NCBI GenBank assembly: GCA_027345185.1
Contig: DAHWIK010000007.1
Coordinates: forward strand, 1-34,563
Origin: Microcaldota archaeon
Lineage (GTDB): Archaea; Micrarchaeota; Micrarchaeia; Micrarchaeales; CABMGC01
Length of the DNA: 34,563 bases
Direction of reading: 5' to 3'
Both the position numbers and the translations under genes were made by a program. The notes below the pieces were generated by a model that was not told where the DNA came from, made no database searches, and saw only the letters and a list, made by a program, of their open reading frames with translations. Shown in pieces: positions 5,624 to 10,482 of this stretch (positions are counted from its first letter, which is position 1; every line of letters begins with the position of its first letter).

Positions 5624-6175
5624 GTGTATATGTGGGGTTTACCAACAGGCGAACGTTTTCTTCCGAAAATGGAACTGAGCAAATTAAAGAGCCTCTACTC
5701 TGCCGAACAGAAGGCAAAACCAAAGATAAGGTTGTTGTGTGCAATTCACCGCAAGAAGGGGGAAAGTATCGATGAAATTGCAGAAGAAACTAATCTGAAA
5801 AGAAGGACAGTGCATAGTATACTTCATCGTTTCTGTGAAAGAGGTATAGAAGCAAAAGACAGCATAAAACAGGACGGCAGACCATCGTTTCTTACGATTC
5901 GCCAACGCAAAAGTCTTGTACGTTATCTGGAGGAACGAGGACTACTAAGAAACGATGGCGGATTGTGGACTACAAAAGAGGTAAAGGAGTACATCCGAAA
6001 AAGGTATGATGTCAATTACACCTCAGTACATGTGTGGGAGTTATTGCAGGCCTTAGGATTGAGCATGCAAAAACCTAGACCGAAACATTATAAACATCCA
6101 AACAAGGAAAATATCGACAAATTTAAAAAAAAGCTTCCAGGCTGGTACGCCATTACCGAAAGAGGGGCTTCGTAA
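5624..6175 (+). CDS. IS630 transposase, N-terminal part (helix-turn-helix domains)
   Basis: This 183-residue product carries the paired helix-turn-helix DNA-binding region of IS630 transposases. The first unit is around IRLLCAIHRKKGESIDEIAE, and the second, winged part is around TTKEVKEYIRKRYDVNYTSV. It stops at TAA 6173-6175, before the catalytic core. The homology continues without a gap in the -1 frame. An A8 run (6125-6132) and a G4 run (6164-6167) lie in the overlap; slipping by -1 at either joins both parts. The start is GTG 5624 or ATG 5630. It may be a working orfA of a frameshifted transposase or one half of a broken gene. Confidence 0.85.
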   Translation: MYMWGLPTGERFLPKMELSKLKSLYSAEQKAKPKIRLLCAIHRKKGESIDEIAEETNLKRRTVHSILHRFCERGIEAKDSIKQDGRPSFLTIRQRKSLVRYLEERGLLRNDGGLWTTKEVKEYIRKRYDVNYTSVHVWELLQALGLSMQKPRPKHYKHPNKENIDKFKKKLPGWYAITERGAS

Positions 6176-6660
6176 TTGGATGCGAAGACGAAGCAACATT
6201 CGGTCTCCTTCCAATAATACAAAAAGGTTGGGCGAAGAGAGGTAGCCGACCTGTTGTGACGATAAACAGCAAGAATGTATGTACAAATGTCTTCGGAGCA
6301 AGGAGCCTCAGATCCTTTGTTTTTTCATTTTCGGAGAGGAAGAAACAGAGAGACTTTGTAAGGTTTGCAGCCAAACTCTCAAGACGCTGGGGTAAAGTAC
6401 TGCTATTCGTAGATAATGGGCCTTGCCATCATGGAAAAATGGTGGACAGATTTTTGAGATTGCACGCAAAGACGTTCAAGTTGGCATTCTTTCCCCCATA
6501 TTCTCCAGACCTGAATCCGCAAGAACAGTGTTGGAAACCTGCACGGAAGAAACTCTCCAACCGTTTCTTCCCTTCTTTGCAATCGGCAAAGTACCACATT
6601 TCTGCAGAATTCAATAAGCCAAATTTTATGCCTAAAATGTTCAAATATTTATCTAATTAG
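6130..6660 (+). CDS. IS630 transposase, catalytic DDE part (-1 frame)
   Basis: In the -1 frame relative to the upstream part, the sequence reads FVIGCEDEATFGLLP (first Asp), FVDNGPCHHG (second Asp) and FPPYSPDLNPQEQCW (final Glu). All three catalytic acidic residues of the IS630/Tc1 DDE fold are therefore present. No good independent start exists: the first GTG (6256) lies after the first catalytic Asp. Production probably needs fusion to the upstream frame by slippage. The stop is TAG at 6658-6660 inside the right terminal repeat. Catalytic residues and both ends are intact, so the element may still be mobile if slippage occurs. Confidence 0.85.
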   Translation, partial: KASRLVRHYRKRGFVIGCEDEATFGLLPIIQKGWAKRGSRPVVTINSKNVCTNVFGARSLRSFVFSFSERKKQRDFVRFAAKLSRRWGKVLLFVDNGPCHHGKMVDRFLRLHAKTFKLAFFPPYSPDLNPQEQCWKPARKKLSNRFFPSLQSAKYHISAEFNKPNFMPKMFKYLSN

Positions 6661-6903: not shown

Positions 6904-7923
6904 ATGATAATATTCAGCACCGCTGTGGCAGGCTCAAACAGGATCGCAATAGAAAGCAAGGTAGTAAAGCTGGCAAAGTCACACGGGAAGGATCTCAAGA
7001 TAATAAACCTGGTAGACGAGATGCTTGAGGTAGCAAAGGGACTCAACGGTGAGCTTACACCTAAAACGCTGCTCAATCTTGACAAGAAGGTGCTTGATGT
7101 CATAACGCTAAATGCACTACATAAGATAAATGACAGGATAAAGAGCACCCCTGGCACAGACTACATAATCGATGGGCACACAACATTCTGGTGGAAGAGC
7201 GGTCCGATAAACCTCATGGACATAAGTGACTTCAAGGAACTCAAGCCGGATTTCTTCATAACAGTGATAGCTACTGAGCGCGAACATGACATGCTCTTTG
7301 AAGACAAGGAGAACCTTAAGGATTCGCACATAGACATGTACGAGCTCCTTATCTGGTCTGAGCTTGAGGTATACACTACAGACCTGATAAGCAGTGCACT
7401 GGGAAAGCAGAACTACCTGATAGGCCTGCAGGAGGATCCGTTGACACTGTACAACCTCATATACAACCCAGACATGATAAAGATTTACATAAGTTTCGCG
7501 ATGACCAGCGCAAACAAGAGCGTGTTTAGGAATCTGGAGAGATTTGTTAATAAGCTGAACAAGATTGCCATAGTTTTCAAGCCGGGGAAGGTTGACCTTG
7601 ATTCCTACAAGAAGTACAAGAACGACCCTAAGATAATGCAGACAGCATCAAATCAGACCGTAAGAAGAGACTACCACCAGATAGACCAATCAGACATGGT
7701 AGTGATACACCTTGCAAGTCTTGTCTATTCGAGCGGCGTGGACAGCGAGAGGATGCACGCGCACAGCACAGGAAAGAAGGTCTTCTTATACTTCCCTTTC
7801 AGCACATATAGTCCGTTCACCCCGTATTTTGTTGATAAGATGTACAACAAGGAGGATCAGCTTATCGATAAGGTAAAGCAGCTTGCAGCGGAGATGCCAA
7901 GGAAGAGAAGGGACAGGAACTGA
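6904..7923 (+). CDS. Fusion of P-loop nucleotide kinase-like and deoxyribosyltransferase-like domains
   Basis: The 339-residue protein seems to have two parts. Residues 1 to about 185 resemble archaeal adenylate kinase (AdkA-like): an N-terminal beta strand and glycine loop, a LKIINLVDEMLEVAK segment, then YIIDGHTTFWW where AdkA has its ID-x-H strand. The loop reads STAVAGSNRIA, however, without the Walker A GK-S/T, so ATP binding is doubtful. Residues about 190-339 resemble nucleoside 2-deoxyribosyltransferases: KIYISFAMT, then IDQSDMVVIHL, then SSGVDSERMHAHSTGKKVFL, where the family has an SD-x-V strand and a G-x-x-x-E helix leading to a GK-x-V strand. An N-glycosidase or nucleotide-sensing role is inference. 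It stands alone, with a leaderless promoter upstream and an IS5-like remnant right behind. Confidence 0.55.
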   Translation: MIIFSTAVAGSNRIAIESKVVKLAKSHGKDLKIINLVDEMLEVAKGLNGELTPKTLLNLDKKVLDVITLNALHKINDRIKSTPGTDYIIDGHTTFWWKSGPINLMDISDFKELKPDFFITVIATEREHDMLFEDKENLKDSHIDMYELLIWSELEVYTTDLISSALGKQNYLIGLQEDPLTLYNLIYNPDMIKIYISFAMTSANKSVFRNLERFVNKLNKIAIVFKPGKVDLDSYKKYKNDPKIMQTASNQTVRRDYHQIDQSDMVVIHLASLVYSSGVDSERMHAHSTGKKVFLYFPFSTYSPFTPYFVDKMYNKEDQLIDKVKQLAAEMPRKRRDRN

Positions 7924-7930
7924 GCTGCTG

Positions 7931-9041
7931 TGTTGAATGAATAGGCATCTGGCGTCTTCCACTATTCCAAAATATTGGTATAAAATATAAACCTTCCTCG
8001 TAAAATTCCTTCAGCGATCAGGTATGGAAGAAGAAAGATGGGATAGAGACTATGAGGACAAAAGGAATTGGCCTGAATACAATGAAAAACTTGTTGCAAG
8101 TGGAATGTTTTATCTAGACTTCAACCTATTCAAAGATTGGGATAAAGAATTGGAGCAGATGAATAAAAACAAAATAGGCAGACAGTATCTGTTCCCTAAG
8201 TCCTTCATAGAATGGGAGGCAGTATGGCATCAATTAGTCGATTACAGAGGTTTGGAAGGAATTACTAGGAAACTTGCAGAGTCAAATCTAATCCCCAGAT
8301 ACAATGATTATACCACTATATGGCACAGGGTACACAACTTCAAACCGAAGATAATTCTACCTACCGATACTAATTTACAAGTAAAGTCTGATGAAACTGG
8401 ATTGAAATTGAACAATAGGGGCGAATATAGAATGGACAAATACGGCGACAAAAACAAAAAGAAGAAACACGTAGTTGTAGTAATAACTGCTGATAAAAAG
8501 AAAAAGAAGCTGTTAGATGTAGACGTATTTATTGAAGGTGAAGGAGAATCCGAACCAAACATTGCAATAAAACAGATGAAGAAGTTGATAAAAAAGAAGA
8601 AGCATATAACGAACTACGGAGCAGACGGTACACATGATACTCACGTAATGTTCAATTTTCTTGGCAAACATCACATTCGTAGTTCTATAAAAATAAGAAA
8701 GAACTCCGTAGTGGTGCGGAAACAGAAGTGCGATGTCATAAGTAAACGCAGGCAACGCGAAGTAAATAAATATCAAGAGTTAGGCTACGAGAAATGGGCT
8801 GAAAAAGTAAGTTATGGCGACAGATGACCCGCAACTGAAGGAATCTTCTCAGGAGTCAAGAGAAAGTTTGGAGAAAATATAGTAAGTGTGAAAAAACCAA
8901 ATGTGCTTGCAGAAGCACTGCAAAGGTTTTGAGCCTACGATATTCTGCAACTTTACGGAAATGGTGCCTTAAAGAGGCTGTAACGGGAATTTGTCCATCC
9001 TGAAATAATACCTTCTCAGTAAAATTCTGGTTCATTCAACA
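7931..9041 (+). mobile_element. Decayed IS5-like insertion sequence (approximate ends)
   Basis: An exact 11-bp inverted repeat, TGTTGAATGAA at 7931-7941 and its complement at 9031-9041, encloses a transposase gene of the expected size (about 1.1 kb in all). No target duplication was found, so the ends are tentative. The transposase has two premature stops. Confidence 0.4.
8024..8983 (+). pseudogene. IS5-family-like transposase with two in-frame TGA codons
   Basis: The first 267 codons (8024-8827) match a DDE transposase family common in archaea, with the typical opening NWPEYNEKLVASGMFYLD and FPKSFIEWEAVWHQLVDYRG. Catalytic Asp candidates are in SDETGLKLN and YGADGTHD. The frame stops at TGA 8825-8827, yet family-like sequence goes straight on: PATEGIFSGVKRKFGEN (with the catalytic Glu in TEGIFS) up to a second TGA at 8930-8932, then AYDILQLYG up to TAA 8981-8983. 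Relatives, as I recall them, have Trp at both stops (RRWP-x-TEGIFS and RFWAYD). All tryptophans kept in the gene use TGG. The 267-residue product would lack the catalytic Glu, so the element is most likely dead. Confidence 0.8.
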
Positions 9042-9996: not shown

Positions 9997-10482
9997 ATGG
10001 TTGAAATTATGAAAAAACAGTTAGCCAAGAGTCATGCACGCCCAAGCTTTGACGAATATTTCATGGACATTGCAAAGAGCGTGTCAGCTAGAGGAAGTTG
10101 CATAAGGAGGCAGGTAGGCGCGATAATAGTCAAGGATCGCAGGATAATATCGACAGGCTACAACGGCACACCGAGAGGGCTCAAGAATTGCGACGAAGGC
10201 GGATGCCAACGTTGCAGCAGCTCTGTAGGAAGAGGCACACATCTTGGCGAATGCCTTTGCTCACATGCAGAAGAAAACGCGATAGTCCAGGCAGCATATC
10301 ATGGTACAAGCGTAAAGGGAGGAGTCATATACACAACAAATTCGCCCTGCTTGTTCTGCACGAAAATGATACTAAACAGTGGGATAATCGAGGTTGTCTA
10401 TAATGCGGAATACCCTATGAACACAGTTACGGCAAAGATGTTCAAACAAGCGCAGATCCCATTGAGGAAGCTGCAATTATAA
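9997..10482 (+). CDS. Deoxycytidylate (dCMP) deaminase
   Basis: A zinc enzyme that deaminates dCMP to dUMP for thymidylate synthesis. Of 161 residues, the start has the family signature RPSFDEYFMDIAKSVSARGS followed by RRQVGAIIVKDRRI and TGYNGTPRGLKNC. The catalytic CSHAEENAI supplies the zinc-binding His and the proton-shuttling Glu, and NSPCLFCTKMI supplies the two zinc-binding cysteines. Extra cysteines (CDEGGCQRC) fit the second zinc site of ComEB-type deaminases. Length is typical. It is monocistronic; the next plus-strand gene is more than 600 nt away. Confidence 0.93.
   Translation: MVEIMKKQLAKSHARPSFDEYFMDIAKSVSARGSCIRRQVGAIIVKDRRIISTGYNGTPRGLKNCDEGGCQRCSSSVGRGTHLGECLCSHAEENAIVQAAYHGTSVKGGVIYTTNSPCLFCTKMILNSGIIEVVYNAEYPMNTVTAKMFKQAQIPLRKLQL

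Follow-up and report, generated by a model that had tools for sequence, protein, structure and literature searches.

A probable DNPH1-like nucleotide N-glycosidase with a predicted pseudo-adenylate-kinase domain in DPANN archaea

Introduction

What could be the function of a protein in which the fold of a nucleotide kinase, with its phosphate-binding loop gone, is joined to the fold of a nucleoside deoxyribosyltransferase (NDT)? The question is raised by a gene in the window, that is, the whole stretch of 34,563 nucleotides analysed here. A preliminary description, made from the letters of the DNA, had read the gene as a degenerate nucleotide kinase fused to a deoxyribosyltransferase-like domain, and had suggested nucleotide sensing linked to glycosidic-bond cleavage, with a view to stress and immune enzymes. 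The open reading frame, on a contig of a Micrarchaeota MAG, was confirmed at exactly positions 6904-7923 of the plus strand (339 aa), and in a search of the window's genome the only match of the gene was the gene itself.

On balance, we think it reasonably probable that the protein is a DNPH1-like 2'-deoxynucleoside 5'-monophosphate N-glycosidase with an N-terminal adenylate-kinase domain that is incapable of phosphate transfer. Its activity, its preference for deoxy substrates and its pathway are what we infer, as is the role of the kinase half in substrate binding, oligomerisation or regulation.

Domain architecture and predicted structure

The gene and its two halves are placed as follows.

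6904..7923, plus strand: whole gene, predicted to encode a two-domain protein with a pseudo-adenylate-kinase and a DNPH1-like N-glycosidase domain (open reading frame, Pfam, AlphaFold model, orthologues)
6904..7464, plus strand: residues 1-187, fold of archaeal adenylate kinase, with a residue content that marks it as catalytically dead (profile, structural alignment, residue columns)
7468..7893, plus strand: residues 189-330, nucleoside-deoxyribosyltransferase/DNPH1 fold (Pfam, structural alignment)

In the window protein, Pfam AAA_17 matches residues 22-126 with an E value of 9.2e-8, above its cut-off, and the NDT family PF05014 matches residues 244-297 with an E value of 2.9e-4 and a score of 21.4, below the cut-off of 28.8. 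At E 0.01, PF05014 matches 19 of the 32 members of the fusion family. A profile of these 32 relatives, compared with the PDB, retrieved archaeal adenylate kinases at E 1.4e-12; no deoxyribosyltransferase (DRT) structure was among its matches, and the assignment of the C-terminal fold therefore rests on the AlphaFold model and structural alignment. The model, computed from an alignment of 20 sequences, has a pLDDT of 80.8 and a pTM of 0.84, with low values for residues 94-103. Of the 21 close sequences (window protein and relatives), the close-family alignment A2 holds 20, with L031 omitted.

In the structural alignment of the model, residues 1-187 superpose on 13 archaeal adenylate kinase entries with Z scores from 17.7 to 15.5, the best match being 1nks (Z 17.7, rmsd 2.5, 183 residues aligned). 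Residues 189-330 align with DRT/DNPH1-type enzymes at Z scores of about 12-15 (7m5h 14.8, 7o62 14.7, DNPH1 13.4, MilB 12.0). Structure prediction and fold comparison thus recovered both of the folds that the preliminary description had proposed, the archaeal adenylate-kinase-like one for the N-terminal and the deoxyribosyltransferase-like one for the C-terminal half. The choice between DNPH1 and NDT was also attempted by fold comparison, which is not decisive, as 7m5h and 7o62 score above DNPH1. A similarity to a SAVED domain (9om7) was dropped because it was not significant (E 0.3).

The kinase-like half

Conservation was counted in a 32-sequence alignment, A3, from which L015, L025, L031, L067 and L068 were omitted. 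L076 entered it without its N-terminus and L077 as a contig-edge fragment, so that both were counted only where residues are present; L077 was left out of the kinase-column comparison and of the tree. For that comparison, 31 fusions were set against 16 canonical adenylate kinases from the window's phylum. The latter include the enzyme encoded on G000:C20, a separate canonical adenylate kinase of the window's own genome. Two stretches of the window protein are central.

6922..6948, plus strand: residues 7-15, P-loop remnant A-V-A-G-S-N-R-I-A in place of G-x-x-G-A-G-K-S/T-T, with R13 at the position of the Walker Lys (alignment)
7171..7194, plus strand: residues 90-97, D-G-H-x-x-F-W-W (alignment columns)

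The loss of the Walker A GK[S/T] motif, already pointed out for the window protein, extends to the entire family. The motif is present in 16/16 canonical enzymes and absent from all 30 fusions that have residues there, among the 32 sequences in total. The column of the Walker Lys is occupied by Arg in 24 of the 31 fusions, by Lys in four and by Ala in two, with one gap. The NMP Arg column contains Arg in 0/31 fusions, the three LID Arg columns in 5/31, 0/31 and 0/31, and an Asn that is invariant in canonical enzymes is replaced by Glu in 31/31. These replaced columns are invariant in 15-16 of the 16 canonical adenylate kinases; NMP binding and LID function are the roles that we take the Arg columns to have. 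The Walker Lys is missing from Methanococcal enzymes too, which read G-G-T-T in the profile alignments, so that its loss would not by itself prove inactivity; it is the combined loss that makes the argument.

Other positions have become fixed in the fusions. F95 and W97 are conserved in all 31 that have residues there, W138 in 29/31 and E155 in 31/31, and W96 falls on a column that is Lys in 16/16 canonical kinases. The window protein departs from its relatives in having Leu at W138 and Lys at D/N226. Both halves of the fusion are under purifying selection: dN/dS lies between 0.014 and 0.10 in both, wherever dS could be estimated among the 10 pairs tried, several of which were saturated. The least saturated pair, L014/L015 (dS 0.18 and 0.11), yields ratios of 0.039 and 0.026. 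With respect to the kinase half, the term "degenerate" is therefore apt for the phosphoryl transfer function, dead by residue content, and not for the domain, which is conserved and selectively maintained. Purifying selection and conserved residues together suggest that it is probably kept for something other than phosphoryl transfer.

The idea that the fusion serves as the adenylate kinase of the cell was considered, and rejected on residue content. With the NCBIfam model PRK04040, the window protein scores 19.7 bits against a curated 155; only 1/20 genomes has a match above this cut-off, the local canonical enzymes also falling below it. In each of the five Parvarchaeota/Nanoarchaeota MAGs G301-G305, the fusion (L059, L060, L061, L063 and L064) is the sole match of PRK04040. 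PF00406 gives weak matches in G301-G304, two of them above the cut-off, and none in G305.

The glycosidase-like half

The predicted active site residues of the C-terminal domain are listed below, with equivalences drawn from sequence alignment.

7486..7488, plus strand: Y195, probable equivalent of DNPH1 Y24 (alignment, literature)
7669..7671, plus strand: D256, predicted catalytic acid, corresponding to DNPH1 D80 and MilB D78 (alignment, literature)
7729..7749, plus strand: S276-x-G278-x-x-x-E282, containing the Ser predicted to bind phosphate and the predicted catalytic Glu, corresponding to DNPH1 S98/E104 and MilB S97/G99/E103 (alignment)

In the fusion alignment, D256, G278 and E282 are each conserved in 32/32 sequences and Y195 in 31/31; S276 is found in 31/32, with Thr in L074, and V279 in 29/32. 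The S-G-V-x-x-E-x-x-x-A feature that had first drawn attention to this half is thus real, and its Glu is kept in every relative, as are the other predicted catalytic positions. The S-D-x-V element, singled out at the same time, does not hold up as a catalytic motif: its Asp, D264, occurs in only 23/32 sequences, and the predicted catalytic Asp is D256. Glycosidic-bond cleavage remains the likely chemistry of the domain, judging from invariant D256 and E282 and a signature typical of (d)NMP N-glycosidases.

It could be asked whether both halves are inactive, the protein being retained for structure or binding. The kinase half, dead by its residues, would fit such a pseudoenzyme. The predicted catalytic D256 and E282, in contrast, are invariant down to about 20% identity, and we regard this as the least probable of the readings discussed here.

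The substrate class is suggested by published comparisons, cited here from excerpts of the papers. Two groups, nucleoside transferases and (d)NMP glycosidases, are distinguished in the family, in which a Tyr near the Glu goes with deoxyribose and a Phe with ribose substrates (PMC7308715). The catalytic set of human DNPH1 is Y24, D80 and E104, with the phosphate on S98, six residues before the Glu (PMC10603095). In MilB, substrate contacts are made by D78, S97 and G99, and the complex carries a mutation of E103 (PMC4081090). The nucleoside enzyme AvNRT has an Asp, D79, six residues before Glu85 (PMC7308715).

A set of 13 standalone proteins retrieved with PF05014 was aligned to the fusions to serve as a local control. 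Three of them (L086, L087 and L100) have, like the fusion, Asp at position 256 and S-x-G-x-x-x-E; six (L080-L085) have N at 256 and D-S-G-T-x-x-E, with Asp six before the Glu; the remaining 4/13 fit neither class. The S-x-G-x-x-x-E signature and this control place the fusion with the nucleotide glycosidases; judging by the motif, its substrates are nucleotide 5'-monophosphates and not nucleosides. Since the six Asp-type relatives have Tyr at 195 as well, this residue cannot tell the classes apart and is informative only for the preference for deoxy substrates. Position 303 (S in 27/32, G in 4/32, D in 1/32) is a candidate for a second phosphate contact of the kind made by DNPH1 S128' or MilB R23.

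These residues also bear on the possibility that the protein is a classical nucleoside 2'-deoxyribosyltransferase with unphosphorylated deoxynucleosides as its substrates. The PF05014 match, the DRT fold and the top Z scores on the C-terminal side (7m5h and 7o62) would be expected of such an enzyme. The Asp six before the Glu is, however, replaced by Ser (31/32) or Thr (1/32), whereas all six Asp-type standalone relatives and AvNRT (D79/Glu85; PMC7308715) keep it. We therefore consider this possibility very unlikely, and a DNPH1-like activity on deoxynucleoside monophosphates remains the favoured assignment.

Standalone proteins with the DNPH1-type pattern are present in the window's phylum, namely L087 (G009:C25) and L086 (G035:C31). 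G009 belongs to the same genus as the window and has L087 and no fusion, which may hint at replacement of one by the other.

Distribution and phylogeny

The fusion was searched for in the genomes of two phyla and in one contig scan with close-family patterns. The contig scan gave twenty relatives, from Micrarchaeota, Parvarchaeota and Nanoarchaeota MAGs. The L014 protein shares 76% identity with the window protein. Full-length fusions are present in 14 of the 301 genomes of the window's phylum, together with one broken copy in the same-genus genome G003 (L112 1737-2000), where the match, in an 87-aa ORF, is confined to roughly the first 79 residues. A short match to the C-terminal end of the fusion with an internal stop (G020:C38:3139-3234) is possibly a decayed remnant. 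The remaining matches in this phylum are open frames of 112-231 aa, of which 16 were translated and are canonical adenylate kinases.

In a second DPANN phylum, that of G301, 18 of 279 genomes have a match, nine close and nine distant. Identity to the window protein, where aligned, is about 47-55% for the close members and 20-29% for the distant ones, apart from a contig-edge fragment among the latter with 33%. For genome counts, the broken copy of G003 was scored as fusion-less and the fragment of G576 as fusion-bearing. In the tree, a branch with a length of 2.04 changes per column lies between 22 close sequences and the nine others; several distant rows are long-branched, which makes the order among them unsure.

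Genomic context

In the window, the gene has transposase genes on both flanks, upstream at 5624-6660 (an HTH and a DDE_3 ORF by Pfam) and downstream at 8024-8827 (a DDE_Tnp_1_5 match). A threonine-synthase-like gene, named by eye, lies upstream of the fusion in six genus relatives and is absent upstream in the window. Neighbourhoods recur within clades and differ across them: recurrent contexts are seen in the window's genus, in L019/L022/L029/L031 and at most Parvarchaeota/Nanoarchaeota loci, beside singletons such as L020 and L021. Deducing the function from conserved neighbours was therefore given up, as no one partner is common to the contexts.

HIT proteins are found near the fusion in L020, L110 and L111 (in L110 by cluster only). 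A distance of two genes separates the fusion from a Nudix protein in L019, L022, L029 and L031, of which only L019 was scanned. In G373 (L107 4559-5934), a thymidine kinase gene and a Nuc_deoxyri_tr2-like gene, the latter below the cut-off, adjoin a distant fusion and form a possible deoxynucleoside salvage cluster. The HIT, Nudix and thymidine kinase/DRT-like neighbours are too scattered to be given weight. In the window itself, the third ORF downstream (9997-10482) is a dCMP-deaminase-type gene, with ComEB, under its cut-off, as the best NCBIfam match.

A stress or immune role, raised in the preliminary description, finds little support. In such a scheme, the kinase half would sense a nucleotide and switch on the glycosidase, which would then deplete dNMPs or a related nucleotide. 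The two-domain layout and the replaced but conserved former kinase columns (R13, W138, E155) would suit a nucleotide-gated effector, and two window neighbours have PADLOC matches over part of the model only, the methyltransferase to mad2 (E 5.9e-15) and the deaminase to dCTPase (E 5e-37). However, these matches cover single domains and are read as shared domains; the deaminase scores 104 against an NCBIfam antiphage cut-off of 400, and its gene (cluster 67) was found only in the window, not beside the fusion in the relatives compared. The protein itself has no match in PADLOC 2.0.0 (0 families at E up to 1), in PHROG or in phage or plasmid records; viral contigs gave a single pattern match, with none confirmed as a relative. 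The recurrence of neighbourhoods within clades also speaks against an effector. A link to defence or mobile elements is thus held to be unlikely, and the specific effector scheme quite improbable.

Association with deoxyribose-phosphate aldolase

If the fusion is a DNPH1-like N-glycosidase, its sugar product would be a substrate of deoxyribose-phosphate aldolase. The aldolase gene adjoins the fusion in L021 (Micrarchaeota) and in L109 (G452, phylum of G301), with TIGR00126 scores of 148 and 182 bits, respectively, at a cut-off of 117. The ends of the two genes overlap by 1 base in L021 and by 4 bases in L109. The gene order is reversed between the two loci, suggesting that the genes became associated on two separate occasions. 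This adjacency was spotted by eye and is post hoc; co-occurrence across whole genomes was assessed in a test of its own, with a single control family.

In the phylum of G301, the aldolase is present in 10/18 fusion genomes and 10/261 others (Fisher p 9e-9), at the curated cut-off in 8/18 and 8/261 (p 5e-7), and with the close clade removed in 4/9 and 10/261 (p 5e-4). The window's phylum gives 6/14 against 4/287 (p 6e-7), 5/14 against 4/287 at the curated cut-off (p 1e-5), and 2/4 against 2/122 when collapsed by genus (p 0.0045). As the genomes are related, these Fisher values overstate independence, and the collapse by genus was applied in the window's phylum only. For threonine synthase, the control family, which was counted in the phylum of G301 only, the numbers are 5/18 and 39/261 (p 0.13), with 19 of the 44 matches under the cut-off.

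The pathway link is not universal, since the aldolase is missing from many fusion genomes. It was not found in 8/18 in the phylum of G301, nor in 8/14 with full-length fusions in the window's phylum; genomes in which it was not found include that of the window (83% complete), the nearest relative of this genome, G005, which belongs to the same genus, and the f2 members G060, G074, G088, G253 and G254.

Discussion

DNPH1 is a single-domain protein. The fusion family shares with DNPH1 (RCL) the fold over residues 189-328 (8rps Z 13.4, 119 residues aligned, rmsd 2.3), the Tyr/Asp/Glu catalytic set and a phosphate Ser six before the Glu, and differs in having an adenylate-kinase-like domain ahead of it, where DNPH1 is described as a homodimer (PMC10603095). 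No counterpart of the water-activating E55/H56 of DNPH1 was identified in the fusion. The stretch after the first strand also differs, by eye, from that of the local DNPH1-like proteins. The CMP N-glycosidase MilB is similar in fold (4jel Z 12.0) and has the S-x-G-x-x-x-E motif; we know of no kinase-like domain in it. Where the fusion family has Tyr, MilB has a Phe, F17 (PMC10603095). NDT enzymes (PF05014) have the superfamily fold and the catalytic Glu in common with the fusion, which has Ser instead of Asp six before it and scores below the Pfam cut-off. The N-terminal half resembles archaeal adenylate kinase (AdkA; 1nks, 6pjw) in the fold of residues 1-187, in the profile match (E 1.4e-12) and in a D-x-H retained in most fusions, and is unlike it in lacking the P-loop GK[S/T], the NMP-binding Arg and most of the LID Arg residues.

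By homology, E282 would attack C1' of a bound dNMP, with D256 protonating the leaving base and S276 and G278 holding the 5'-phosphate, and water would then release 2-deoxyribose 5-phosphate next to the free base. Deoxyribose-phosphate aldolase would split the sugar phosphate into glyceraldehyde 3-phosphate and acetaldehyde. DNPH1-type cleavage of dNMPs yields the substrate of the aldolase, and in genomes with both genes the fusion could be the source of this substrate. The likely role would be the conversion of DNA-derived or unwanted dNMPs to bases and usable carbon in small, nucleotide-scavenging archaea. Nucleotide biosynthesis is reportedly missing in acidophilic Micrarchaeota and Parvarchaeota, which are described as scavengers of nucleotides; for Parvarchaeota, a use of the acetaldehyde formed by deoxyribose-phosphate aldolase has been suggested (PMC5864196).

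The kinase half may sense a nucleotide, influence the active site or determine the oligomeric state; a more specific scheme would assign it a definite task. A kinase fold that has lost phosphoryl transfer could use a re-specialised pocket (R13, H92, F95, W97, W138, E155) to gate or feed the DNPH1-type site. The result would be a DPANN route from dNMPs to free base and deoxyribose 5-phosphate and, through DeoC where it is present, to central carbon metabolism. We put this forward tentatively, as a possibility that is somewhat doubtful in its full extent.

Alternatively, the protein could do more than hydrolyse dNMPs and exchange bases between nucleotides, by transferring deoxyribose 5-phosphate from one base to another, with the kinase-like half helping to bind the second substrate. 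Phage DmtZ, which belongs to the NDT family and was identified through its structural analogy with DNPH1, performs both hydrolysis and transfer (PMC12884076), and base exchange would aid salvage in organisms reported to be without de novo nucleotide synthesis (PMC5864196). The association with the aldolase, in contrast, favours release of deoxyribose 5-phosphate, and base exchange appears unlikely. Hydrolysis of dNMPs by a DNPH1-like site is thus retained as our assignment.

An adenylate-kinase/deoxyribosyltransferase architecture was not found among the matches listed in the open-licence literature. Two fusions are the nearest precedents found. In some phages, the DNPH1-like NDT-family domain of DmtZ is fused to a second nucleotide-metabolism fold, as here, except that the partner is dUTPase-like and not a kinase (PMC12884076); the window protein is unmatched in the phage collection. 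The HGPRT/adenylate kinase of Zobellia galactanivorans, compared by description only, also joins an adenylate-kinase domain to a nucleotide-handling transferase, and differs in that the partner is a phosphoribosyltransferase and the enzyme is described as bifunctional (PMC7326950). The C-terminal chemistry is of a known kind; what is new is its pairing with a dead kinase domain.

The excerpts of the work on acidophilic Micrarchaeota and Parvarchaeota do not name the source of the aldolase substrate (PMC5864196). If our prediction is true, an enzyme could now be named for the step that produces this substrate in these archaea. The family would also provide a case of a pseudoenzyme with a nucleotide-kinase fold that is joined to a nucleotide N-glycosidase.
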